From an uncultured Flavobacteriaceae bacterium (GTDB lineage: Bacteria > Bacteroidota > Bacteroidia > Flavobacteriales > Flavobacteriaceae): DNA of 64,000 nt. How positions within the stretch are numbered: position 1 is the first letter of the stretch; every line of letters starts with the position of its first letter. The translations under genes were made by a program, and so were the position numbers. The notes beneath the pieces are model-generated. The model saw only the letters and a list, made by a program, of their open reading frames with translations. It had not been told where the DNA came from and did no database searches. The stretch spans positions 372,001-436,000 of the forward strand of contig CANNCM010000001.1 in NCBI GenBank assembly GCA_947503105.1, given 5' to 3'. Shown here in pieces: positions 26,877 to 39,660 of the stretch.

Positions 26877-26953
26877 GGTCCCATAGCTCAGTTGGTTAGA
26901 GCATCTGACTCATAATCAGAGGGTCCTTGGTTCGAGCCCAAGTGGGACCACCA
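26877..26953 (+). tRNA. tRNA with CAT anticodon (Met elongator or Ile2)
   Basis: Full cloverleaf with CCA encoded: acceptor GGTCCCA/TGGGACC, D arm GCTC/GAGC, anticodon stem TCTGA/TCAGA with loop CTCATAA (anticodon CAT), T stem CTTGG/CCAAG with loop TTCGAGC. The CAT anticodon fits elongator Met or lysidine-modified Ile2; I cannot separate them by eye. The 3' part overlaps, antisense, the last codons of the serine recombinase (26916-26953). This is the expected geometry when an element has integrated at a tRNA 3' end. Confidence 0.95.
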
Positions 26954-28463
26954 AATGGGACAAACTCAATTTTTTTGAGATTTGTCCCTTATTTTTTTGA
27001 CCTAACTCCTTATCTATCTGCAAGATATATCTTAACACATCATTGATTCTTGTGGTTCGACATTTTTTTCCGTCAAATTCAATGTTTTCTGGAAATATCG
27101 AACCAATCAGGCGTTGTTTCCCATGAATATCTGTGTTGATGTATATAGTATCAAACTCATCAAGAACCTTGTAAGCCTTCTCAAAATCCTGTTTAAATGA
27201 GCTGTTATGGCGATTTAAATTCTCAAGCTGCTCCTTGATTTCTTGTTTCTGACTTGAGTATCTTGAATAGGCACTATCATATGCATCATGATCTATCTTT
27301 CCATCCACTAGCAAGTCTTGTAGACTTTCTAGTCTTTTGACTACTTGTTGGAGTTTTTCTTTTAGCAACTGCTTTTTGTTTTCTTGTCCTTTGTCGTCAC
27401 TTAATGCTAATGACTTTAGCACTTCTTTATAAAGTAGTTTGGATTGCTTGGTGAATTTAAAATCTGAAAGGATGCTTGTAAAGACATCATTTAATTTTAT
27501 CGCATTATAGCGCTCTTTTCTGCAACTATTACAATGGTAGTAGAAAAAGCGCTTACCGTTTTGACTTCTTGATGCACTTCCTGTCATCTTGGATTTACAT
27601 CTGCTACAGTGTAGCTTTCCACGAAGTGGCAACTCTTCTCTTTGCCTATTATACTGTGATCTGTTTCTGCTCTTTACTCTATTTTTAAGAATCTCTTGTA
27701 CCTTATAAAAAGTATCTTCTGTGATGATTCCCTCATGCACCCCCTCAACCAAAGTCTGAGGCTCATCATCTTTGGTAGGAACCACAATCTTTCCAAAGTA
27801 AACTGGGTTCCTTAATATATTAGATAAATTATTTCTGCTAATCTTAAGCCCCATTTTTTGTATATCGCTTCTAATCTCCGCTTGGCATTTATCACTAATC
27901 ATTTCATCAAAAGCATATTGTATGTACTTTGCCTTATCGCTTGGAACAAGTAAGGGTTTGTTTTGATTGTCTCTACTATTTTTATATCCCACTGGTGCTT
28001 TTCTACACCATCGTCCAGCTTTTAGCGAGCCCCTTATTCCAGACCTTATCTTTATTGACCTTCTTTCATTATCAATTTCTGGAAAAACTAAGTTCATCGC
28101 CAATAGAGCTTTGCTCTCAGGTACATTAAAGTCTATGGGTTGTTCTATAGCCTGCACTTCAATGCTTAATGCTCCAAACATCCTTAGCATAACAAAAGAG
28201 TCTGTGGTGTTTCTTGAAAATCTGTCCCAGCTTGTTACAAGCAAGTAGTCTATTTGGTTTTTGTGTTTTTTGGCATACTGCATCAGTTTTTTAAACTCAG
28301 GGCGATCAAAGTTCTTAGCTGAATGATCCTCACGGTACTTCTTTACAATTTCAATATTGTTTCTCTGGCAATACTTTACAAGCTGCTCGTGTTGTACATC
28401 TAATGAATAGCCCTTTGCCTGCTCGTCTGTGCTCACGCGGCACATGATAATTGCTTTTTTCAT
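26916..28463 (-). CDS. Large serine recombinase, intact (module 1)
   Basis: 515-aa site-specific recombinase. The N-terminal resolvase domain (residues 1-145) has the nucleophile Ser11 in [14 protein letters not shown] and the helix around SWDRFSRNTTD. It is followed by a recombinase DNA-binding domain (about 165-265) and a zinc ribbon with paired CxxC motifs (CSRCK, then CNSC, about 300-340). A long coiled coil follows (about 370-450). The last residues, PLGLEPRTL, are read antisense through the tRNA T arm and acceptor. Known relatives integrate or excise mobile elements at short att sites. No stop or frameshift is seen, so it may be active. Two small ORFs and a MerR-like gene lie upstream on the same strand. 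Confidence 0.92.
   Translation of the reverse strand: MKKAIIMCRVSTDEQAKGYSLDVQHEQLVKYCQRNNIEIVKKYREDHSAKNFDRPEFKKLMQYAKKHKNQIDYLLVTSWDRFSRNTTDSFVMLRMFGALSIEVQAIEQPIDFNVPESKALLAMNLVFPEIDNERRSIKIRSGIRGSLKAGRWCRKAPVGYKNSRDNQNKPLLVPSDKAKYIQYAFDEMISDKCQAEIRSDIQKMGLKISRNNLSNILRNPVYFGKIVVPTKDDEPQTLVEGVHEGIITEDTFYKVQEILKNRVKSRNRSQYNRQREELPLRGKLHCSRCKSKMTGSASRSQNGKRFFYYHCNSCRKERYNAIKLNDVFTSILSDFKFTKQSKLLYKEVLKSLALSDDKGQENKKQLLKEKLQQVVKRLESLQDLLVDGKIDHDAYDSAYSRYSSQKQEIKEQLENLNRHNSSFKQDFEKAYKVLDEFDTIYINTDIHGKQRLIGSIFPENIEFDGKKCRTTRINDVLRYILQIDKELGQKNKGQISKKLSLSHLVVPLGLEPRTL
26957..26988 (+). terminator. Hairpin terminator after the tRNA
   Basis: GGGACAAA-CTCA and its complement form a strong stem, followed by TTATTTTTTT. 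It lies 3 bp after the tRNA CCA and inside the 3' coding part of the recombinase gene. A near-copy occurs at 39524-39555 beside a recombinase remnant. Confidence 0.8.
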
Positions 28464-28562
28464 GATTTTAATCTTTTAATGTTTTTATAATTTTCTAAAA
28501 ATGTTGTTTTTAATGTATTGGTGATTTTATGTGTTCTTTTCTTATTTTTTTAAAAACACTAT

Positions 28563-28694
28563 TTAGCTCCAAGAAGCTATTTGCTCCCGTGCAATAAAAA
28601 TCAACAGATCTCTGATCTGTTGTATTTGGTCCTTTGTAAGCTTATCTTTTCTATCCTTATTTAATATCTGCTCGCATTTTGTAAGTGACACCAT
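28563..28694 (-). CDS. Tiny conserved protein upstream of recombinase 1
   Basis: 43-aa ORF starting MVSLTKCEQILNKDRKDKL and ending EQIASWS. It resembles the 45-aa ORF at 35650-35787, upstream of the second recombinase: both have a short N-terminus, an xQILNxxRKxK core, and then a predicted helix. Conservation of sequence and place in two modules argues that it is a real gene. Function unknown; a recombination helper or small DNA-binding protein is a guess. It overlaps the preceding ORF by 34 bp. Confidence 0.6.
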   Translation of the reverse strand: MVSLTKCEQILNKDRKDKLTKDQIQQIRDLLIFIAREQIASWS

Positions 28695-28801
28695 GACTGT
28701 GATGGTTGTGCTTGCCTTTGCTCTTTACAATAGGGTTGCCGCTTTGTCTTTTGAAGCTCAGGTTTTGAGTCTTCGTATATCATTTTTTGTTTGTTGCTCA
28801 T
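28661..28801 (-). CDS. Small hypothetical ORF (46 aa)
   Basis: ORF starting MSNKQKMIYEDSKPELQKTK, basic and Gln-rich, overlapping the next tiny gene in another frame. A 41-aa ORF sits in the same place in the second module (35555-35680). The two peptide sequences share little, so the coding status is weak. They could serve mainly for translational coupling. Confidence 0.35.
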   Translation of the reverse strand: MSNKQKMIYEDSKPELQKTKRQPYCKEQRQAQPSQSWCHLQNASRY

Positions 28802-28821
28802 CTGTAACATAAGGGTAAGGG

Positions 28822-29751
28822 TTAAAGCTTGTGCTTTTCTGTTCTGTTAAAAATTAAAGGGTCTCCATTTTCTACTTTAAACTCCATGGTCATGTAGCTC
28901 CCTTTTTTAATGTACTCAACAAGCCGTTTCTCCGCCTCTGCTTTATGCATAGAGGTAAGTTCTATCATAGTGGGGGTTTTGTCTTTGTATTTTATTGTTA
29001 CACTTTTTAGGGCTCTGTGGTGCTTTCTTACAAGGGTTAAGATTTTATGATCTGTTTTACTTAGTATCATAATCTGTTCCTTGGTGTAATCCGTGTTCTT
29101 TTGAACAAACTTCTGAGTGAGACCGCTGAGTGAAAAACTACAGTGCGGTTTTTCGATAGCCTTTTGGAAAGCCTCTAACCCACTACCATCTTCTCTGGAG
29201 CTTAACTCTTCTAAAGACTTTTTGTTTACAACCTGAAAAGCTGCTGGGTGTTTAAAAAACAAAAGACGGATGTTCTGAGCATGTAGTATCGTGTCTTTTA
29301 CAAGACTCTCCAATAGCGTTATATATGAACCGTCTGATTGTTTGGTGCTTGTGATAGCGCTTATCGCTTTTTTATCCAAGCAACTTGTATACGTGTTTTC
29401 AAAATACTGGGGGTTTTTTAAAAACCCTGCTCTTAAAACCTCAATAGTGATAGGCTGGGTAAGAAAATACCCAATAGCCTTTATGTCCTCATAACTAAAC
29501 CCAAACTCTCTTAAGTGTGATACGATACTCATCCATACATACTCCATAAAGCACACTGCTGTGCTTTTATAAGCTGTTTTGTCTATATCTACACCATAAT
29601 TTATGTCCAACAGCCCTGAACGCTCCCAGTTCACAATATCAGTGTAAACCAAATCAAGGCGTGTCTTTACAAGCGATGGGGTGTAGATATATGCTCTAAA
29701 GTCTGGAGCTTTATATTTATCATCGTAAAAAGGATCAAGCGTGAAGTCCAT
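28822..29751 (-). CDS. MerR-like protein, module 1
   Basis: 309-aa protein I cannot assign to a named family. The N-terminal 100 residues read like a winged-helix of MerR type (IVNWERSGLLDINYGVD, then an alanine/aromatic helix and LREFGFSYEDIKAIGYFL). The long helical C-terminal part ends in a basic region. Its relative at 34699-35553 has the same layout (MVTYWKTKEVLP, ELSAFGINTTKLAEL). Both are followed by small ORFs and a serine recombinase, so a regulator or recombination directionality role is a fair guess. TTGTAA/TTACAA dyads lie just upstream. Confidence 0.6.
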   Translation of the reverse strand: MDFTLDPFYDDKYKAPDFRAYIYTPSLVKTRLDLVYTDIVNWERSGLLDINYGVDIDKTAYKSTAVCFMEYVWMSIVSHLREFGFSYEDIKAIGYFLTQPITIEVLRAGFLKNPQYFENTYTSCLDKKAISAITSTKQSDGSYITLLESLVKDTILHAQNIRLLFFKHPAAFQVVNKKSLEELSSREDGSGLEAFQKAIEKPHCSFSLSGLTQKFVQKNTDYTKEQIMILSKTDHKILTLVRKHHRALKSVTIKYKDKTPTMIELTSMHKAEAEKRLVEYIKKGSYMTMEFKVENGDPLIFNRTEKHKL

Positions 29752-29762
29752 GTACTTATTTT

Positions 29763-29796
29763 TTGTAAAATTACAATTTATTTGTAATGTTACAAA
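29763..29796. promoter_or_regulatory. Two tandem operator-like dyads before the MerR-like gene
   Basis: Two inverted repeats of half-site TTGTAA with its complement TTACAA, each with a 2-bp spacer (29763-29776 and 29782-29795, the second extended by a base on each side). Their centres are 19 bp apart, about two helical turns. They sit 12 bp upstream of the start codon at 29751. Similar dyads (TTACAT/ATGTAA) lie before the second MerR-like gene. Autoregulation is inferred. Confidence 0.5.
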
Positions 29797-29800
29797 CTAT

Positions 29801-30250
29801 TTAGAAAAAAGAAAAAGATTTGTTCTTTTTTAAAAGCTCGGCTTGTAGCGCTTCGATGGTTTGTATTTGATCCGCTATTGTTTGGGTTTGTTCTTCTATT
29901 TGAACCTTTTGGATGGCTGTAATGCTTTTTTGCATTTCAAGCTCACTGCTCATCTTGTCTCTATCTTTCATAAAGATCTGAGTGCACTCATAATCGTTCT
30001 GCTGGTTTCTTTTGGTGTTTTTAAGCTCAAGCTTTAACGATCTATTTTCTTCTTCAAGAGCTGTTTCTAAAGGCGTTGGTTTGCCGTAGGTCTTATAGCA
30101 GTCATAATACATCTGGAGAATTTCTGCCAGATACTCCGAAAACCCCATTCCTAGGCCCTCTGCGGTTTCTTTGTAGAGTTTTTTTTGAGCTGCCGTGACC
30201 CTTGTGCCTATAGTAAGGGTCTTAAACTTGTTTGTTAGATTGTCGTTCAT
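29801..30250 (-). CDS. Ribbon-helix-helix/coiled-coil protein, module 1
   Basis: 149 aa. Residues 8-50 look like a ribbon-helix-helix DNA-binding unit (TLTIGTRVTAAQKKLYKETA, then GLGMGFSEYLAEIL). Residues 60-140 are a long Gln/Glu/Lys coiled coil. It resembles 34083-34502 in length, layout and motif order. Such proteins often act as accessory DNA-binding or relaxosome-like factors in Bacteroidota elements, but no relaxase is present here. It lies 50 bp upstream of the MerR-like gene, on the same strand. Confidence 0.6.
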   Translation of the reverse strand: MNDNLTNKFKTLTIGTRVTAAQKKLYKETAEGLGMGFSEYLAEILQMYYDCYKTYGKPTPLETALEEENRSLKLELKNTKRNQQNDYECTQIFMKDRDKMSSELEMQKSITAIQKVQIEEQTQTIADQIQTIEALQAELLKKNKSFSFF

Positions 30251-30276
30251 AGCTTTTTTGGTATATATTAATTAGC

Positions 30277-30296
30277 TGTTAACCAGTGTGTTAACA
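30277..30296. promoter_or_regulatory. Perfect 7-bp palindrome upstream of the RHH gene
   Basis: TGTTAAC, a 6-bp spacer and GTTAACA, placed 27 bp upstream of the RHH gene start; a further GTTAGC follows. It could be an operator for the ribbon-helix-helix protein. Inferred from position and symmetry only. Confidence 0.4.
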
Positions 30297-30436
30297 GGCG
30301 GTTAGCGAAAACCCTTTTATTTTTAACACCCATTTCAAGGTGTTTTTATTTTAAAGGATATTCAAAGCTACTATGGCTTATATATACAAAAAAGCGTTTT
30401 GGAAGTTTTATCTGCAACTTTTGGACAAAATCGCAT

Positions 30437-31592
30437 TTAATGCTGTTTTTTTGATATTTTAAGGAAATCATTAGAGGTGTAAAAAGAAAATTTAGGAGTT
30501 TTAATTAGTTTTAAAACTTGTCGCTTTCTAATTTTATATGAATTGAAATGCCTCATTAAACCTAAATAAGAATTAACAACAGCTAAAATGTCATTTTGTG
30601 TTGAACTTATTGTGTTTTTTATTAAAGTCAATTTATGGTTTTTAGGGTAAAAATTCTCTTTTGTATGATTTCCAATATAAACTCTTCCAGGCTTTAAATA
30701 GGCACCTAAAAACTGAACCCCTTTTTTGTAGTGTTGCAAGTATATTTTTTTAGGATGAAGTTCCAACTTTAAGTCAATTAATAATTTTTGCTTTATGACT
30801 GGAATTAATTTTTTCAACTCATTTTTATTTTGATTGCAAATAATAAAATCGTCAACATATCTTCCATAGTACTTAATTTTCAACTCTTCCTTTACAAAAG
30901 AATCAAAATCATGCATGTAGAAATTTGCAAACACCTGGCTTGTTAAGTTCCCTATGGGAAGACCGTGGCCTGATTTAGAATAAAATAAAGATTTGTTCTT
31001 TGGAAGCCCATCCCAATTTTTAGAACTCCCCAATTTAATAGCTCCCTCTACTGGAATGGTTAAAATAATTGTTGTGCATAAATATTTTATTAAGGATTTG
31101 TCTTTTTTATGGTAATTGAGCTCAACAAAATTTAAAACTATTACAAGCAATATTTCTCTACTGATAGATATGAAAAATCCAGAAATGTCTAGTTTTAATA
31201 CATAACAGTCTTTGGTGTATTTATGTGAACAATTATATATGTGGTTAAAAAATTCTTTTTACACCATAGAGCGTACCTTTTCCTTTTCTACAAGCATAAC
31301 TATCTGTTATAAAAACGGATTCAAACAGCGGGTTTATACGCTGCATTAAAAAATGATGGATGACTCTATCTCTAAAATGAGCTGCAAAAATTTCCCTTTT
31401 TACTGGTTTGTTTACAATAAAAACAGAATAAGGACTTGGCTTATAACTTCTATTTATTAATTCATCACAAAGTAATAATAAGTTTTGTTCAAGATTTTTT
31501 TCAAACTTAATGGTCTGGGGTTTTTTTCGCTTTCCTTTTGAGCAGCGTAAGTAAGCCTTGTAAAGTTCTTCAAATAATTCTATGTTTCTCAT
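30437..31592 (-). pseudogene. DGR reverse transcriptase, frameshifted
   Basis: Reverse transcriptase of the diversity-generating retroelement type, in two frames. Fragment 1 (31592 to about 31250) has KPVKREIFAAHFRDRVIHHF and DSYACRKGKG. Fragment 2 has the motif A Asp (LKLDISGFF), the DGR/group-II-like LPIGNLTSQVFANFYMHDFD, the catalytic YVDD, and KGVQFLGAYLKPGRVYIG. The break is a single extra base, most simply a T6 tract on the coding strand (plus-strand 31247-31252); T5 would give one protein of 384 aa, normal for this class. It could be a real mutation, slippage or a sequencing error. It lies immediately downstream of the TR, as in known DGRs. The RT copies TR RNA, misreading adenines, and the cDNA replaces the VR. 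Confidence 0.9.
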
Positions 31593-31603
31593 TTACTAAA
31601 AAA

Positions 31604-31625
31604 GCCTCTTTTATTATAAAGAGGC
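31604..31625. terminator. Hairpin between TR and RT start
   Basis: GCCTCTTT and AAAGAGGC pair with a 6-nt loop, flanked by A and T runs on both sides. It lies 11 bp before the RT start codon and 13 bp past the TR. It could end or stabilise the TR RNA and limit readthrough into the RT gene. Confidence 0.65.
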
Positions 31626-31637
31626 CTTTTACTTAAG

Positions 31638-31823
31638 TCCCTGACAAAACGCACCGAAAAGCCGTTTTGCTTGTTGTTGTTGTTCCTGTTTAGGTTACTG
31701 TTATTGTTGTTCAAGTTGCGGTTCCATGCGTTATTTGTATTGTTCTCAGTGGAACTCCAAAAGATTGCATTGTTACCCTCATTGTTAAACGAACCATTGT
31801 TGTTACGGTTACCCTCAGGGAAG
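31638..31823 (-). repeat. DGR template repeat (TR)
   Basis: 186-bp near-copy of the 3' end of the target gene, lying between avd and the RT. On the minus strand it is packed with AAC/AAT codons (Asn runs when translated), the usual design of a template whose adenines are mutated. It aligns to the VR (32265-32450) without gaps. I count about 26 differences, of which about 23 fall on TR adenines; the other three fall on G. The open frame through it (31589-31843) is a by-product and not a protein gene. Confidence 0.93.
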
Positions 31824-31894
31824 CACCAATAAATTGTAGTCACTTTTGTATTTGCTATTAAAAACAGCGGACTACCGGATTTAAACTAACACAC

Positions 31895-31918
31895 TTTTTA
31901 TTGCCTTGACAATAAAAA
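31895..31918. repeat. Inverted repeat between avd and TR
   Basis: TTTTTATTG and its perfect complement with a 6-nt loop, 11 bp past the avd stop and upstream of the TR. A terminator for the target-avd transcript, or a fold at the start of the TR RNA, are both possible. Confidence 0.5.
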
Positions 31919-31929
31919 CTCTGGTTATT

Positions 31930-32173
31930 TCACTTTAAACTCTTTTTCCAACCGGTTAGTTGTTTTGATATGTTTTCTGTCAAGACACTTATTTGTGTAA
32001 AACGCTTTAAGCTTAATTGTTTTAAATCTTTTAACACCCTCAAAAGTAGTCTAACAAGTTCGATTTTATCTGGGATATTTATAATCTCTTGAAAGCGGAT
32101 TACTATATTCATACACCAACAACAGTAAATCATAGCTGGCTTTATAAACAGGTAAATCACTGTATGTTCTCAC
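31930..32173 (-). pseudogene. avd: DGR accessory protein Avd, internally deleted
   Basis: Two frames together give Avd ends. From GTG at 32173 reads VRTYSDLPVYKASYDLLLLV, the N-terminal helix, and the frame stops at 32066. Another frame gives the C-terminus, LVRLLLRVLKDLKQLSLKRF and then LTGWKKSLK. Avd proteins are usually about 110-130 aa four-helix bundles that bind the RT. Here only about 80 codons of DNA remain, so some 35-40 middle residues are missing and the frame changes at the junction. Position between target and TR is canonical. The gene product should be non-functional. Confidence 0.8.
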
Positions 32174-32187
32174 AAAAATAAATTTTA

Positions 32188-32236
32188 AGCGCCTGACGGC
32201 GCTGGTTTTAAAGACGGGGCTGCTAAAAGCAGCCCC
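32188..32236. repeat. Twin hairpins just downstream of the VR
   Basis: AGCGCC/GGCGCT with a 4-nt loop (32188-32203) and GGGGCTGC/GCAGCCCC with a 5-nt loop (32216-32236). The second lies 28 bp beyond the VR in the coding direction. Known DGRs carry a GC-rich hairpin of about 8 bp just after the VR that promotes retrohoming; this stem size and loop fit. It can equally act as the target gene terminator. Confidence 0.7.
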
Positions 32237-32260
32237 TTAAAGAGTCAAGTGTCAAGACTT

Positions 32261-33490
32261 TTAATCCCTGACAAAACGCACCGAAAAGCCGTATTGCTTG
32301 AGGCTGTTGGAACTGTTTAGGTCATTGTAATTGAAGTACAAGTAGCGGTTCCATGCGTTATTTGTATCGTCCTCAGTGGAAGTCCAAAAGATCGCAATGT
32401 CACCCTCATCGACAAACGAACCATTGCTGTGACGGTCACCCTCAGGGAAGGCATTAAAGCCACTGCTATTGTTTGTGCTTTGGTCATTGCCTATTGATCC
32501 TGAATTTGTTGAACTATTCCATCCTGTAGTTGAGGCCATCGCTTTAGCTATCATATTCTCTGTAGTGGTGCCGTCATAGTTATAACCATTGGCGATAAGG
32601 TAGTTTTCAAGAGTGGTCCACTCGGCATCTGTGGGTACGTGCCAACCCTCTGGTGCAAATTCTTTGTTTGGGGTGTTAGGGTCTGTATCGTGTATACCCA
32701 TTACAGCATACCAATTATAGAGCCTTGGCTTTGTGGGGTCGTTGTTATAAAATGCCCAAGCACCTGTAGTAAGATTTGCCCACTCTGTTGCATCTGTGAC
32801 TTGCGGAATCTCAGTGCCGTCTCTGTAAGTCACCATCTCGGCGTTTTCTACAGTCCAAACTTGGTCTCCGTAAGTAAGGTAATCATAAGAATTGCCGTCT
32901 ATGTCTGTGACCGAGGTTGGCTGCAGAGCATCTATCTGACTTTGGAGGCTTGTTATTAGAGCATCTATGTAAGCCTTTGTTGCAGCATCTTGAACATCTG
33001 TTGGGTCTTGCAAGTCTTTTATCTGCTGGTTGTTGGCAGAATTATTTTCTGCCAATACTGCTTCTAAATTAGGTGTTGTTGGTGTGCTGTTACCACTGTT
33101 TTCTGCATAAAGTGCGTAAGGAACGCTGAGTAATTGTGTAGTACCCATAGCCACATAGCCACTGCCTGTATCGAGCTCTATGCCTAAGTAATAACTTCCT
33201 AAGGACCAATCTAGTTGTGAAAAGACACCTGTGGTGGCTGTGCCTTGTCCAATCACAAGATTGACATGTCCTAAGTCATCTGTTGGGACATAGTGTATTT
33301 CTGTAAACACAGGAAGGTTTGTTTGAGAGCCTTGCATAATGTTGAACTTGAAATCCACATTGGTATTGACAATTAAATCTCCTGAGCTGTTTCTAACCGT
33401 AGCCTGGTAGTTAAACCCCTGTGGGGCCTGGGCTTGCAGTTGTGTAATTGATGCTATGGTTATACATAGAATAGTGTAAAATTTTTTCAT
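32261..33490 (-). CDS. DGR target: secreted protein with C-type-lectin-like variable domain
   Basis: 409 aa. A signal peptide to about residue 20 (TQLQAQ) is followed by an N-terminal domain common in Bacteroidota surface proteins (APQGFNYQATVRNSSGDL to LLSVPYALYAENS, about 21-132), a helical stalk (about 140-195, QIKDLQDPTDVQDAATKAYI), then a Fib_succ_major/C-type-lectin-fold domain (about 200-409, with DGNSYDYLTYGDQVWTVEN, RLYNWYAV and GWHVPTDAEW). The last 62 residues are the variable repeat, where Asn codons of the TR have become D, S, Y, H, V, I, L or F. The invariant scaffold (AIFW, NAWNR, GFSVRFVRD) is kept. The start overlaps the upstream T9SS-tagged gene by 4 bp. Likely a surface ligand-binding protein of selectable specificity. 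Confidence 0.92.
   Translation of the reverse strand: MKKFYTILCITIASITQLQAQAPQGFNYQATVRNSSGDLIVNTNVDFKFNIMQGSQTNLPVFTEIHYVPTDDLGHVNLVIGQGTATTGVFSQLDWSLGSYYLGIELDTGSGYVAMGTTQLLSVPYALYAENSGNSTPTTPNLEAVLAENNSANNQQIKDLQDPTDVQDAATKAYIDALITSLQSQIDALQPTSVTDIDGNSYDYLTYGDQVWTVENAEMVTYRDGTEIPQVTDATEWANLTTGAWAFYNNDPTKPRLYNWYAVMGIHDTDPNTPNKEFAPEGWHVPTDAEWTTLENYLIANGYNYDGTTTENMIAKAMASTTGWNSSTNSGSIGNDQSTNNSSGFNAFPEGDRHSNGSFVDEGDIAIFWTSTEDDTNNAWNRYLYFNYNDLNSSNSLKQYGFSVRFVRD
32265..32450 (-). repeat. DGR variable repeat (VR)
   Basis: The 186-bp 3' end of the target gene and the recipient of mutagenic retrohoming. Changes from the TR are scattered over it, except for constant blocks encoding NAWNR and the final GFSVRFVRD. 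The non-mutated 3' block next to the stop is where an IMH-like initiation site would lie. Differences are A to T, G or C, plus three changes at G. Confidence 0.92.
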
Positions 33491-33963
33491 TGCTTAATGA
33501 TTTTATAGGTATTGGTTTGTTTTGATTCTTTTGTCGTTACTGTTATAAAGTAAGTCCCTGTGGTTAGTGTTTGAACGCTCAGGGGCTGCTGTTTTTGATG
33601 TGCTGTTTGCAGGATTTGTTTTCCACTTACATCTGTTATCCTTACTTCAAAGAATTGTTCTGTGGGATGGGTGATATAAATTACTTCTTTGGTAGGATTT
33701 GGAAAGACCTTTACTTGAAGTTGTAATTCAGGAGTTTCTGTGTTTAGCGTAGATAGATTTAATGAGGGGTAATACCCATTGCCTAATTGATAGGTGCCGT
33801 CTTCATCAGTCATAGCACCAACAGTGACTTCTCCAACTGTGTAACTGAGTTTGTTATTCCCATTCTCAAAAGTTTGGCCGCCTGGACCAATGACTTGTTT
33901 GGAAATACTTTGGCTAAAGCTTAGGCACCCAACAAACAGAAAAACAACTTTTAAATATCGCAT
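33487..33963 (-). CDS. Small secreted protein with T9SS sorting domain
   Basis: 158 aa. A signal peptide to about residue 18 (SFSQS) is followed by a short N-terminal region (SKQVIGPGGQTFENGNNKL and TVGEVTVG) and a C-terminal Por-secretion-type sorting domain (about 85-158, with VFPNPTKEVIYITHP, the VRITDVSGKQIL strand and GTYFITVTT). It overlaps the DGR target gene by 4 bp and should be cotranslated with it. The target itself ends in the VR and has no sorting tag. A role as export or anchoring partner is a guess. Confidence 0.82.
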   Translation of the reverse strand: MRYLKVVFLFVGCLSFSQSISKQVIGPGGQTFENGNNKLSYTVGEVTVGAMTDEDGTYQLGNGYYPSLNLSTLNTETPELQLQVKVFPNPTKEVIYITHPTEQFFEVRITDVSGKQILQTAHQKQQPLSVQTLTTGTYFITVTTKESKQTNTYKIIKQ

Positions 33964-34082
33964 ATATTTTTTAAATTTATATAATTATCGCCTAATGGCA
34001 AATCCAGTTAATATTCCAACAACTCCTGCCGTGGCATGTTTTAGCTGCTGGTCTCTTTGTTGTTTTCTTAGTTTGTCATGAT

Positions 34083-34502
34083 CTAATTAATTTTATGGGT
34101 TATTTCTTTTTGCCTTTTAAGCTCCTCAGCTTGTTCGGTGTTTATTGCTTTTTGTTCTTTTAACTCGTAGGCAAGTTCGTGATTTTCATTTTGGATTTGA
34201 ATGCGATGGTTCATTTCCATCTCTACTCTAAAATCTGTATTTTGTATTTGGACGTTCAGTTTAGCATTTTTCTTTTTTTCAAGCCGTAAATTTTCGGCTA
34301 ATTTTTCTTCTTTTGGTGAAAGCATACCTATGTAATCGTATTGGTTTTTAAAGCACATCACCAAATTGTACATAAATTCCGATAAAGACACCTTATACTT
34401 TTCTGCCAAACGTCTTAGCATAATCTTTTCCTCTGACGCTACTTTAAGGCTGATGGTCATGTTTCTGTATTTTTCTTTATGACCTTTATTTTTATTTTTC
34501 AA
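34083..34502 (-). CDS. Ribbon-helix-helix/coiled-coil protein, module 2
   Basis: 139 aa, of the same type as 29801-30250. A basic N-terminus precedes an RHH-like unit (NMTISLKVASEEKIMLRRLA, then KVSLSEFMYNLVMCF). A Glu/Gln/Lys-rich coiled coil runs from about residue 60 to the end. It is transcribed away from the MerR-like gene 34699-35553, and their shared 196-bp gap holds palindromes and a tandem duplication. A Lys/Gln-rich stretch continues after its stop in another frame (to about 33990), so the 3' end may have been longer once. Confidence 0.58.
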   Translation of the reverse strand: MKNKNKGHKEKYRNMTISLKVASEEKIMLRRLAEKYKVSLSEFMYNLVMCFKNQYDYIGMLSPKEEKLAENLRLEKKKNAKLNVQIQNTDFRVEMEMNHRIQIQNENHELAYELKEQKAINTEQAEELKRQKEITHKIN

Positions 34503-34525
34503 ATATACGAAAAATTATACATACT

Positions 34526-34781
34526 TTTTATTTTTTTTTATTTTTTTTTACATTTATGTAAAATTTGTATGTGAACAGCGATTTAGATTTTAAAAAAGAC
34601 TTATTAGGACAGCGCTTTACACTGCCAAAGTATTTTGGTATAAGCCCTCGAATTTTTTATTTTTTTTATTTTTTTTTACATTTGTGTAAATTTTGTATGT
34701 GAACAGCGATTTAGATTTTAAAAAAGACTTATTAGGCCAGCGCTTTACACTGCCTAAGTATTTTGGTATTAGTCCTCGAAT
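34526..34781. repeat. Tandem duplication of 128 bp at the 5' end of the MerR-like gene
   Basis: Units 34526-34653 and 34654-34781 are near-identical. Each holds a T-rich tract, the TTACAT-type dyad, TTGTATGTG and the first 27 or so codons (from NSDLDFKKDL to about GISPR). Only the second copy continues into the full gene; the first runs into a stop after the second T tract. It looks like a local slippage duplication of promoter plus start region. Confidence 0.85.
34548..34561. promoter_or_regulatory. Operator-like dyad (and copy at 34676-34689)
   Basis: TTACAT-TT-ATGTAA is a perfect 14-bp palindrome. The copy in the second unit has one base changed. Spacing and half-site resemble the dyads upstream of the module 1 MerR-like gene (TTGTAA/TTACAA, 2-bp spacer). 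A common regulator is inferred. Confidence 0.45.
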
Positions 34782-35553
34782 GGTGACTTATTGGAAAACA
34801 AAAGAAGTACTTCCTTTTTTTGATGCTGGCAAAAAAGCTAAAATGAATGTGCCTCAAGCACTGTGGCTGTGTTTAGTTCATGAGCTTAGTGCTTTTGGTA
34901 TCAACACGACAAAACTTGCTGAGCTTGCTAAAATGGTTTGGAATGAGCCGCGCGAGAATGGGTATTTTAAATCCAAGCTTGAAAAGCATATTGCTTTTTT
35001 GAAAAAGCAAAAGGTTGTTGATGCGACTTTAGGGGTTTATGAATCTATTTTAAACGATCCGCTTCTGCTTCATTTTCATGGCATGGAGATAAACCCATTT
35101 AGTGATGCTGTTATAGAAAGTATTTTAATAGACAAAAAGCCGATGTCGTTTTATTACTTTCCTAAAACAGGAGAGTATCATATTAGAGATGGTAATAAAG
35201 CCATTACAGAAAAGTTTTTGGAGATGATAAACGATAAGGCTTATATGTGTATTCCTCTTATGCCCTTTATTGAACAAATAGTGTCTGTTGAGTTTCAAAA
35301 GGTGAAAAAAGATATTGCATACCTCAGTCAAATAGAAAATCAAATTCGAGAGATTATTATGTTTAAATCTCCAAAGTACATTGAGCTACTTAAAGACAAC
35401 GATAACATCAAACCGCTTATCATTCGTGAAGACCATAAAAAAGCCAAGCAACTGGCGGATTTCTTTTTAAAAAATAAACTCCCCAAAACAGCAAGGCTAC
35501 TTATTGAACCTAGAGCACAAGACAATTATAAATTAACCATCTTAACCAAATAG
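34699..35553 (+). CDS. MerR-like protein, module 2
   Basis: 284 aa from GTG at 34699; TTG at 34693 is the alternative and no ATG is available. The N-terminal winged-helix-like region has KYFGISPRMVTYWKTKEVLP (about residues 20-40), followed by LWLCLVHELSAFGINTTKLA. The rest is mostly helical, ending in a basic domain (REDHKKAKQLADFF). It is a diverged relative of 28822-29751 and lies directly upstream of two tiny ORFs and a broken serine recombinase. Family name and function unknown; a DNA-binding regulator is likely. The upstream 5' region is duplicated. Confidence 0.6.
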   Translation: MNSDLDFKKDLLGQRFTLPKYFGISPRMVTYWKTKEVLPFFDAGKKAKMNVPQALWLCLVHELSAFGINTTKLAELAKMVWNEPRENGYFKSKLEKHIAFLKKQKVVDATLGVYESILNDPLLLHFHGMEINPFSDAVIESILIDKKPMSFYYFPKTGEYHIRDGNKAITEKFLEMINDKAYMCIPLMPFIEQIVSVEFQKVKKDIAYLSQIENQIREIIMFKSPKYIELLKDNDNIKPLIIREDHKKAKQLADFFLKNKLPKTARLLIEPRAQDNYKLTILTK

Positions 35554-35554
35554 T

Positions 35555-35680
35555 ATGAAGCATTTTGTATCACCACATCAGTTCCTGCCGTGTCAGCCTG
35601 ATCAATACAGCGTAAGGGGTGGCCCGCCGCCAACTTGCCACACAGGAAGATGCAAATTGAAAAAGCAACACAGATCTTAA
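35555..35680 (+). CDS. Small hypothetical ORF (41 aa)
   Basis: Starts MKHFVSPHQFLPCQPDQYSV 1 bp after the MerR-like stop and overlaps the next tiny gene. Its place matches the 46-aa ORF in module 1, but the sequences are not clearly alike. Coding status weak. Confidence 0.3.
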   Translation: MKHFVSPHQFLPCQPDQYSVRGGPPPTCHTGRCKLKKQHRS

Positions 35681-35787
35681 ATCAAAATAGAAAAGAAAAA
35701 TTTACAACTAAAGAAGTAGAAGAAATAAAAGCGTTTTTAGAAAACTATTCTAAAATCGTAGTAAATAACATGCTAAACGAAAACTAA
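35650..35787 (+). CDS. Tiny conserved protein upstream of recombinase 2
   Basis: 45 aa, MQIEKATQILNQNRKEKFTT then an acidic helix (KEVEEIKAFLENYSK). An AGGAAG sequence lies right before the ATG. It resembles the 43-aa ORF at 28563-28694 in size, motif (QILNxxRK) and place. The stop abuts the recombinase start (TAAATG). The two copies support a genuine, unnamed small protein tied to these recombinases. Confidence 0.6.
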   Translation: MQIEKATQILNQNRKEKFTTKEVEEIKAFLENYSKIVVNNMLNEN

Positions 35788-37456
<1,669 letters not shown>

Positions 37457-37502
37457 ATCATCACTAAAACAGTTCGACTTTACTCCTCTCCGACTCCACG
37501 GC

Positions 37503-37539
37503 ATTATTCCCTAAAATAAATTTTATTTTAGGGAATAAT
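37503..37539 (+). terminator. Long hairpin after motif R2
   Basis: A perfect 18-bp inverted repeat beginning ATTATTCCCTAAAATAAA with almost no loop, followed by TTTTTT. It insulates the channel gene from upstream transcription. Confidence 0.65.
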
Positions 37540-37618
37540 TTTTTATGAAATAGTACTAAAATTAGTTAAATTTATATAGCATAAAAATTTAATTTTTAAC
37601 AAACAAAAAGTAATTCTT

Positions 37619-39280
37619 ATGAAAAGTACAAACTATAAAATAGGACTCATTTTAAACGATGATACTCCAGAAACTCCCTTAAAAAAGAGGATTAGTTTTT
37701 TTATTCTCTTTCTAATTCTGGTTTCTTCTTTTGAAGTTATATTGGAGTCCGTGGTTTCATTAAATGTAAAATACTATCATCATTTTTTTATCATTGACGC
37801 TGTAGTTAGTATTCTTTTTAGCATTGAATATTTACTTAGATTGTGGACCTATCGAATTGCTGGAAAAAAACCCTCATTAAAACAACGGTTTTCATATATC
37901 ACATCATTCTATATGGTGATTGATTTCATTAGTATTATTCCTTTCTATTTTTCTTTATTTATTCCTACAGGATATGGTTTTATAAGAATAGTAAGAATAC
38001 TTCGCCTTTTTAGATTACTAAAATTTGGAAGGTATATGAAATCTCAAAACTTGGTTGTTAACGCTATCAAAAACAAGGGCAAAGAGTTGATACTATCTAT
38101 GCAGTTAGTGGTTTTTTTAACAGTTATACTTTCAGCATTATTATATCACATAGAAAATAGCGCCCAACCTGATAATTTTGGTGATATTATAGATTCTTTT
38201 GTTTGGTCGCTTTCTAAATTTATTGGTGGTGTAGGTGGATATGGCGATTTTGAACCCATCACTCTTTGGGGACAGGTAATGGCGACCATTGTTGGCTTAC
38301 TTGGAATTGCTTTGTTTGCAGTTCCAGCAGGTATTATTGGGGCTGGTTTTGTAGAAGAAATTGAAGCAATTAAAGTAGATGAAGAACTTAAAGAAAAAAA
38401 CGAAAAATTACTAACTGCATTTAATTATGAAATTCTTGCAAGTGCAATAAAAATTAAAAGACTATTAGGTTTATCTCACATAAGAAGAAAATTTATAAAG
38501 TTAGCCTCAGCAGAATTTAAACTAACACTCTCTCGAGAAGATTTAATAAATATTGCTGATAAAGGAAGAGGAGTAAAATTAAGCATAGTCGATAACATCG
38601 AAGTTATACAGTCTTTTGATGAAAATTCAATTTATGGAACCTATAATGATAAGAAATCAAACATTACAATTATATCATCAAATTCTGCAATTCAACCGTA
38701 TTTAGGACATTTTACCTATGCAATGTCAGAATATCTAAATGCAAATTATATCAGCTCAGAGCTTGTTAGTGGATCAGTTTGGAATCCAAAATACAAATTC
38801 GATCTTACTACTAATCCTTTGTATATTTCAGGAGAAATATCAGAAAACATTTACTATGAACAGTTTAAAAGTGATATGTTGGATACTACTAAAGAGAAAA
38901 GTACTGTTATTTATTTTTTGTGTTCTTCCTCAAAAAATGGCTCATTCCACATCCTAAACGGAGGTGCAAAGGGAGATTTAGAATTTACTCAAACTGAAAG
39001 CACTTTCGATGATATTAATAGACTGGACAGTTTCTTCGACACAATAAATAAATCACTTAAAGAATTTGATAAAACAGAAGATAAAGTATACTCCACCATT
39101 TACAAACATAAATTTTACGGTAATGAACACAAAAATGGTTATCACTGGTTTTTAAGAAAAGAAAAAAATGCAAATGTTATATGCATATATGTATCAGTTA
39201 AAATTTTGACGGCTAAGTCAAGTGAATATTATTCAATTATTAAAATTTTAGGAGATGGTATTAACAATCATCTACTCTAA
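37619..39280 (+). CDS. Voltage-gated potassium channel with unknown C-terminal domain
   Basis: 553 aa. Residues 20-260 form a six-helix Kv-type channel: helices near 25-50, 58-78 and 95-118, an S4 voltage sensor with Arg/Lys at every third position (GFIRIVRILRLFRLLKFGR, about 122-140), S5 near 155-175, a pore with the GYGD filter (VGGYGDFEP, about 202-210), and S6 near 218-245. After a coiled-coil-like stretch (about 247-275) comes a soluble region of about 280 residues that I do not recognise. It is the only gene between two 108-bp direct repeats, so it looks like cassette cargo. A stress or anti-phage effector role is conceivable but unproven. Confidence 0.8.
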   Translation: MKSTNYKIGLILNDDTPETPLKKRISFFILFLILVSSFEVILESVVSLNVKYYHHFFIIDAVVSILFSIEYLLRLWTYRIAGKKPSLKQRFSYITSFYMVIDFISIIPFYFSLFIPTGYGFIRIVRILRLFRLLKFGRYMKSQNLVVNAIKNKGKELILSMQLVVFLTVILSALLYHIENSAQPDNFGDIIDSFVWSLSKFIGGVGGYGDFEPITLWGQVMATIVGLLGIALFAVPAGIIGAGFVEEIEAIKVDEELKEKNEKLLTAFNYEILASAIKIKRLLGLSHIRRKFIKLASAEFKLTLSREDLINIADKGRGVKLSIVDNIEVIQSFDENSIYGTYNDKKSNITIISSNSAIQPYLGHFTYAMSEYLNANYISSELVSGSVWNPKYKFDLTTNPLYISGEISENIYYEQFKSDMLDTTKEKSTVIYFLCSSSKNGSFHILNGGAKGDLEFTQTESTFDDINRLDSFFDTINKSLKEFDKTEDKVYSTIYKHKFYGNEHKNGYHWFLRKEKNANVICIYVSVKILTAKSSEYYSIIKILGDGINNHLL

Positions 39281-39411
39281 CTGAATTTAAAATTGTTTTA
39301 CTTAATCTTAAACAAGTTTTCAATAAAATAGTTCAAACTCAACACCTTTGTTTCAAAGTTAAAAGGGAAATAATTTGTTTTCATGAAGATAGCTTTTTGT
39401 AATCTCGGCGA

Positions 39412-39518
39412 CTCCACTTTTTATTCCCAAGAATAATTTTTTATCCTTGGGAATAATTTTTTGTAAAAATAACTAAATCATCAGCAAAAAAGTTCGACTT
39501 TACTCCCTTCTGATCCAC
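39412..39518 (+). repeat. Direct repeat 2 (107 bp) downstream of the channel gene
   Basis: Second copy of 37392-37499. It starts at the CTCCAC end of a truncated motif (R3, to 39417), with hairpin TTATTCCCAA/TTGGGAATAA and spacer, and ends in motif R4 (GTTCGACTTTACTCC then TGATCCAC). The two copies flank 1.9 kb holding only the channel gene. Confidence 0.85.
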
Positions 39519-39523
39519 CACAC

Positions 39524-39660
39524 GGGACAAACTCATATTTTTTAAGATTTGTCCCTTTTTATTTTCACCTAACTCCTTGTCTATCTGTAAGATATGCCTC
39601 AGCACATCATTGATTCTTGTAGTTTGACATTTTTTTCCGTCAAATTCTAAATCGAACTTA
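39524..39660 (-). pseudogene. Remnant of a serine recombinase 3' end
   Basis: The minus strand encodes LEFDGKKCQTTRINDVLR, HILQIDKELG and MSLSRVV, close to the last 50 residues of the intact recombinase at 26916-28463 before its tRNA-derived tail. The hairpin GGGACAAA...TTTGTCCC (39524-39555) is also shared with the tRNA terminator. Nothing upstream of this tail survives. Together with motif R4, which takes the tRNA's place, it marks a third integration of the same family. Confidence 0.8.

Follow-up and report, generated by a model that had tools for sequence, protein, structure and literature searches.

A probably inactivated diversity-generating retroelement with a C-type-lectin-like target gene in an uncultured Flavobacteriaceae bacterium

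A DGR with broken machinery

We investigated a diversity-generating retroelement (DGR) on the minus strand of a 64-kb stretch of DNA (the window; GenBank assembly GCA_947503105.1, contig CANNCM010000001.1, positions 372,001 to 436,000) from an uncultured Flavobacteriaceae bacterium. This locus is likely a DGR whose target, the C-type-lectin-like tip of a surface fibre, was once diversified and whose machinery was lost recently. The substitution pattern between the template repeat (TR) and the variable repeat (VR) shows that A-directed rewriting happened to this VR. Both the reverse transcriptase (RT) gene and the accessory gene avd are broken, and this assembly (31 contigs, 99.48% complete) yielded no further RT, its sole RVT_1 match being this locus. 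The tip is therefore probably fixed now. A preliminary description, made from the sequence alone, had reported a complete layout and programmed variability in the present; neither statement is supported, because the RT is split by a frameshift, avd lacks ~104 nt and its frame, and no second RT is at hand. All positions are window coordinates, and one assembly underlies all lesion calls.

The minus-strand order of parts given in the preliminary description, from a gene with a type IX secretion system (T9SS) tail through the target gene, avd, and TR to the RT, was confirmed by open reading frames (ORFs) and family searches. That the locus is a DGR by descent also stands, given its TR/VR mismatches, its RT motifs, and its canonical order. 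The parts are as follows:

33487-33963, minus: T9SS-tailed gene, 158 amino acids (Por_Secre_tail, E 2.5e-13; TIGR04183, E 1.9e-13)
32261-33490, minus: target gene, 409 amino acids, open ORF (ORF and family search)
33230-33457, minus: N domain resembling that of mosaic adhesive trimers (MATs), target residues 12-87 (NF053851, E 1.5e-9, 37.9 bits)
32924-33067, minus: stalk-like predicted helices, target residues 142-189 (AlphaFold 2; phage tail fibre similarity)
32267-32875, minus: Fib_succ_major/FISUMP tip domain, target residues 206-408 (PF09603, E 2.5e-36)
32265-32450, minus: VR, 186 nt, in register with the TR
32216-32236, minus: G+C-rich hairpin 3' of the VR (fold prediction)
31930-32173, minus: avd remnant, with a frame change and ~104 nt missing near 32071 (alignment with L038; bAvd; profile pieces)
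31638-31823, minus: TR, rich in AAC codons (repeat comparison)
31598-31630, minus: hairpin with a T run, between TR and RT (fold prediction)
31245-31592, minus: RT 5' part, 115 amino acids, ending at the frame break (ORFs)
~30437-31249, minus: RT 3' part, out of frame with the 5' part, containing LPIGNLTSQ and YVDD (ORFs; RVT_1)

The stop codon of the T9SS-tailed gene overlaps the start of the target gene. A stem-loop after the VR is also present in BPP-1 (PMC12875486).

A-directed changes in the variable repeat

In their 186-nt core, the TR and VR differ at 26 positions, of which 23 fall at a template A. From TR to VR, ten of these changed to G, ten to T, and three to C. With A making up 71 of 191 TR bases, the binomial P for this bias is 9e-8. 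Of the 19 AAC codons of the TR, 15 are altered in the VR; the encoded amino acid differs at 21 of 62 codons. The VR lies at the 3' end of the target gene, as had been described, and inside the Fib_succ_major domain, which scores 126.1 bits against a gathering score of 33.9. In the intact state, the RT and Avd would copy TR RNA with errors at A. The complementary DNA would then replace the VR and mainly change AAC codons of the tip, as is established for BPP-1.

The three non-A mismatches are changes on the VR side, all at G. We dropped the idea of mutagenesis at G, which over 58 relatives changed at 0.9%, compared with 0.8% for C and 1.2% for T; the 57 survey loci among these were chosen by a score penalising non-A mismatches. 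The genome has a second Fib_succ_major gene (C12:5169-5774; L006:406-2112) with a collagen-like stalk, and the ORF preceding it ends like a T9SS tail, judged by eye. Its scaffold is identical to that of the target at 131 of 157 aligned positions and its tip at 24 of 59. We did not read it as a further VR of this TR, as only ~33 nt match the TR.

Lesions in the RT and avd

The RT reads for 115 amino acids and stops just past a T run, and the catalytic part resumes in another frame. Both expected motifs, (I/V/L)GxxxSQ and YxDD, are present in the 3' part as LPIGNLTSQ and YVDD. A working DGR has a full-length open RT; the RT here lies in two frames, and we therefore file the locus as an inactivated DGR. 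The 3' fragment matches RVT_1 (E 6e-11), and the best solved chain is 8ub7 (E 8.9e-10), named "Reverse transcriptase," which we take to be the BPP-1 DGR RT.

The preliminary description had named an RT of the group II intron or retron kind as the finding that would speak against a DGR, and no such RT was seen. The best NCBIfam names for the fragment are indeed group II, Drt3a, and retron models, and NCBIfam reported no DGR RT model at E 0.01. However, these matches are far under their cut-offs (best 56.7 of 300 bits), and relatives of the RT mostly come with avd and a TR/VR pair. We reject a group II intron, retron, or defence RT as extremely improbable because it is contradicted by the SQ motif and the A-biased TR/VR pair. 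The RT tree described below includes only DGR-type relatives and so does not test this alternative.

The avd remnant opens in one frame and closes in another, and its missing nucleotides were placed by comparison with the intact copy in a cassette of another genus of the family (L038 in genome G080). A local avd profile, built from three sequences, matched positions 1-33 and 62-115 in different frames. The 3' part matches bAvd at E 2e-7, below the cut-off; an intact copy of this common DGR accessory gene is absent from the locus. The genome's other bAvd-like matches are three tandem, near-identical avd-like ORFs (C1:563391-564498, L043-L045) with a period of ~398 bp. They raise the possibility that Avd, or an RT, is provided in trans from elsewhere in the genome. 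We consider this very unlikely, as they reach 35.1 bits against the family cut-off of 40, all three falling below it, and a second RVT_1 match is lacking.

Relatives of the cassette

We surveyed the best 80 of at least 578 relatives (at least 592 stretches matched) from a genome-contig scan with the RT, and because only the best were kept, the sample leans to well-conserved genes. A script found a full open RT in 73 of the 80. Two further loci, L086 and L116, were counted as probably intact, since the only stops within their RT match are TGA and they are open under code 25. In L081, L094, L096, and L137, the RT is at a contig end, with stops as well in L094 and L137. The remaining locus, L067, is broken in both RT and avd. 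Full avd was present in 60 loci and partial avd in three (L066, L067, and L086), while the local profile did not find it in 17. A TR/VR pair passed the score in 57 of the 80.

Twelve further loci came from 11 genomes (ten class hits and one order hit). The RT is full in nine of them and cut by contig ends in two, and L160 has an RT stop and a short avd. The resulting 92 loci are not all independent, as L161/L135 and L091/L092 are near-copies. Against this baseline, a cassette broken in both RT and avd is unusual but not unique.

Close relatives are sparse. Within the genus (11 genomes, counting this one), the RT was found in this genome only. Across the family, 59 of 397 genomes match the RT fragment at E 0.001, most of them weakly, and three have a close RT: this genome, G080 (78% identical, broken), and G197 (50%, open). 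At E 1e-25, matches occur in 2 of 395 genomes of the order and 11 of 395 of the class, with this genome included in both. The G197 cassette (L039) has open RT and avd, and 15 of its 16 TR/VR mismatches over 124 nt are at A. No closer relatives came from the first genome-contig scan or the viral-contig scan, and the exact pattern upstream of the TR had no viral-contig match. RT matches in plasmid and phage records were all less than 60% identical.

Evidence for and against present activity

Several points weigh against loss of the machinery. The RT lesion is a single frame change at a T run, a type that is mimicked by sequencing errors, and by itself it could be one. Inactivity is not provable from one assembly. 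Furthermore, avd may not be needed everywhere, because it was not found in those 17 surveyed loci. The rate of VR-side non-A changes, 3/186, is exceeded in 8 of 58 relatives (at most 6/144, in the broken L067) and is zero in 26 of 58. These changes are within the spread of open-RT relatives, and the VR itself is therefore no proof of long inactivity.

If the DGR were still active, the RT break would be a sequencing error or be passed by +1 ribosomal frameshifting, and Avd would be dispensable or partly working. The break reads UUU UAA C, which permits re-pairing in the +1 frame, an idea that leans on general knowledge of prfB. The motifs in the RT 3' part are intact, and both the few non-A changes and the loci without avd are in keeping with activity. 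However, avd was separately lost through deletion and a frame change, G080 is in frame at the corresponding RT site, and BPP-1 needs Avd. When BPP-1 was reconstituted in E. coli, activity without bRT, Avd, or TR fell to ~1e-9 (PMC12875486). We consider continued activity unlikely and prefer recent loss.

DGRs of this inactivated kind have been seen before. The cases in the DiGReF survey (PMC3521204) likewise have an RT broken by frameshift, nonsense, or insertion with TR and VR recognisable. Unlike those, in which only A changes were described, the present locus also has a broken avd and three non-A changes in the VR.

A sister cassette and the timing of loss

The G080 cassette likewise has all five parts, and its RT protein is 78% identical to that of the window. 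It differs in several respects. Its avd is intact (115 amino acids; phrog_3206, "Avd protein of DGR," E 1.3e-17), its RT is broken at other places (one frame change and one stop), and its target is also broken, unlike the open target of the window. It adjoins a SprB-repeat protein and a PorP/SprF gene instead of the tRNA-Met island described below.

The TRs of the window and G080 have eight ungapped core differences, and at six of these each VR has the state of its own TR. At least one lineage thus kept copying TR to VR once the two had split, because otherwise each change would be needed twice. The G080 TR additionally departs from its own VR through a 3-nt gap and at a single other position. 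These data, and the rate of VR-side non-A changes, fit a recent loss of the window DGR.

Divergence between the two cassettes is uneven. At synonymous sites, two parts of the RT (113 and 75 codons) diverge by 0.10 and 0.09, the first 33 avd codons by 0.17, and 230 target codons outside the VR by 0.69; the tail gene is saturated (pS 0.74). Windows of 100 columns have a DNA identity of 0.86-1.00 in the avd-TR-RT stretch and of 0.67-0.98 upstream of it. A more recent exchange of the DGR core than of its cargo may explain the difference, as may RNA constraint or uneven rates; the avd stretch is short.

The open target beside a broken RT and avd is also what would be seen if loss had been favoured, with the diversifying parts discarded after a successful tip had arisen, an idea voiced for a cyanobacterial paralog (PMC7517822). 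In G080, however, the target is broken too, which fits plain decay, and a single genome permits no test of selection. We regard such favoured loss as unlikely.

The target as a putative surface fibre

The preliminary description had assigned the target to the Fib_succ_major/C-type-lectin fold. The family assignment stood, while the fold comparison rests on a poor separate tip model (predicted local distance difference test score, pLDDT, 55.6). The first Foldseek PDB row for this model was 8oks, the tip of Bdellovibrio Bd2740, and was non-significant (E 2.0, probability 0.15). Against 8oks, the poor model gave a VIA Z of 2.0 and a root mean square deviation of 4.9 over 55 aligned residues, the sole row with Z of at least 2 among 524 chains. 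In the AlphaFold 2 model of the whole target, a single chain with a mean pLDDT of 59.8, the tip fails, but residues 21-110 score 79-92 and helices span residues 142-161 and 166-189. No PDB structure matched the whole-target model at E 0.001 or better.

The N domain matches the MAT N domain model below its curated cut-off of 60 bits. The stalk is similar to phage tail fibres ("tail fiber gp9" 23sh, E 6e-5; phrog_2710, E 7.9e-5), and the whole target had no match among phage sequences. Pfam and NCBIfam reported no sorting domain in the target; the T9SS C-terminal domain is only on the small upstream gene. The host SprA of the T9SS is intact (2746.8 bits, no stops). The target would be exported with its T9SS-tailed partner, form a trimer, and bind a ligand.

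Known systems share parts of this arrangement. Human-microbiome DGRs (PMC4159848) have avd, RT, and a Fib_succ_major target as here, but the case quoted there is a lipoprotein with Mfa2, whereas here a MAT-like N domain stands with a T9SS-tailed neighbour. A Bacteroides uniformis phage DGR (MT806185) with a Fib_succ_major target has target-side genes, avd, and RT in line, as here. Bdellovibrio MATs such as Bd2740 have the N domain after a signal peptide, and the C-type-lectin tip of Bd2740 is packed as in Mtd, with which it shares a reported mode of trimerisation (PMC10769870). The available text describes no DGR with these MATs; here the MAT match is sub-threshold and the trimer is putative.

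An island at tRNA-Met

The location on an island, as previously described, was upheld by a tRNA-Met edge at which the flanks of genus members diverge. The island features are as follows:

26877-26953, plus: tRNA-Met (cat), left island edge; left flanks of five genus members align to 26952
26916-28463, minus: serine recombinase with an open frame that overlaps the end of the tRNA (Resolvase, E 8.3e-28; Recombinase, E 1.8e-14)
35788-37318, plus: second serine recombinase, in pieces (tblastn with the first recombinase)
39515-39647, plus: copy of 26948-27080 (tRNA end and recombinase 3' end), 133 nt, 88% identical

The left flanks of the five genus members match up to the tRNA-Met end and then diverge. 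In four of the five, alignment to the right flank picks up again, at least piecewise, from ~42-44.5 kb. We interpret the island as several integrations stacked at a single tRNA. The tRNA-Met is an integration hotspot (26877-39650), with a 3' remnant of a third recombinase at 39495-39653. At the same site in the genus member G008 (L055:1580-13273), positions 1580-1760 share 78% identity with a portion of the T9SS-tailed gene, and the site also holds a PorP/SprF gene and a 3470-amino-acid ORF.

Two related small proteins (29801-30250 and 34083-34502; 25% identical, E 2.8e-7) flank the DGR and weakly resemble NikA mobilisation proteins. A 128-nt tandem duplication, 94% identical, lies at 34525-34780, at the start of a 286-amino-acid ORF.

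Recurrence of the tail gene with a MAT-like target

NCBIfam found MAT_N in 4 of 54 targets scanned (the window, L061, L067, and L070). Of 33 upstream proteins searched with Pfam, 8 had Por_Secre_tail. We then used local profiles, which were seeded with loci of the same survey. The MAT-like N domain profile matched 8 of 92 loci (seeds L061, L067, and L070; found L069, L106, L153, L154, and L159). The tail-gene profile, with L061, L067, L070, and L084 among its seeds, matched on the target strand in L061, L067, L069, L070, L084, L129, and L154, and on the opposite strand in L079 and L118. Both features occur together in L061, L067, L069, L070, and L154, plus the window and G080. In L070, tail gene and target are separated by a 114-amino-acid ORF; in L069, overlapping ORFs of different frames carry the MAT-like domain and the VR; and many surveyed loci are cut off upstream.

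On an RT tree of 92 rows, all DGR-type relatives (L155, L160, and L162 of the twelve further loci left out; bootstrap values not yet stable), seven changes are required to account for the ten MAT-like rows, and well-supported branches force at least five. The MAT-like pairing therefore arose or was lost several times. RT loss is suggestively commoner in the MAT-like module (the window, G080, and L067 of seven loci), with the window and G080 not drawn from the survey. The doubly broken L067 locus (L067:3417-6651, a Marinilabiliaceae metagenome-assembled genome) carries a T9SS tail and a MAT-like target.

Among the papers listed by our searches of the open-access literature, none was found to describe a DGR paired with a MAT-like N domain and a T9SS-tailed gene. 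Of the papers listed, only the MAT paper (PMC10769870) contains both DGR and MAT terms, DGR in a cited title only, and for DGR with type IX secretion only a rumen virus review matched. Inactivated DGRs (PMC3521204), Fib_succ_major targets (PMC4159848), and removal of diversifying parts (PMC7517822) are already in print. The present locus is thus of a known kind, while the fibre type it served looks new.

What had been called a complete DGR is corrected here, and two related cassettes broken in different places are useful for asking how DGRs die. Tentatively, and with considerable doubt, we propose a recurring module in Bacteroidota that may couple a T9SS-tailed partner and a MAT-like trimeric fibre to a DGR, as a cell-surface counterpart of the phage Mtd tip. 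It may have been paired with different DGR cores several times, with the RT often lost, such that hypermutation would come in bursts and be followed by fixation. If this fibre module holds, a T9SS-tailed partner and a MAT-like stalk would provide a testable surface-display route for DGR-diversified tips in Bacteroidota.

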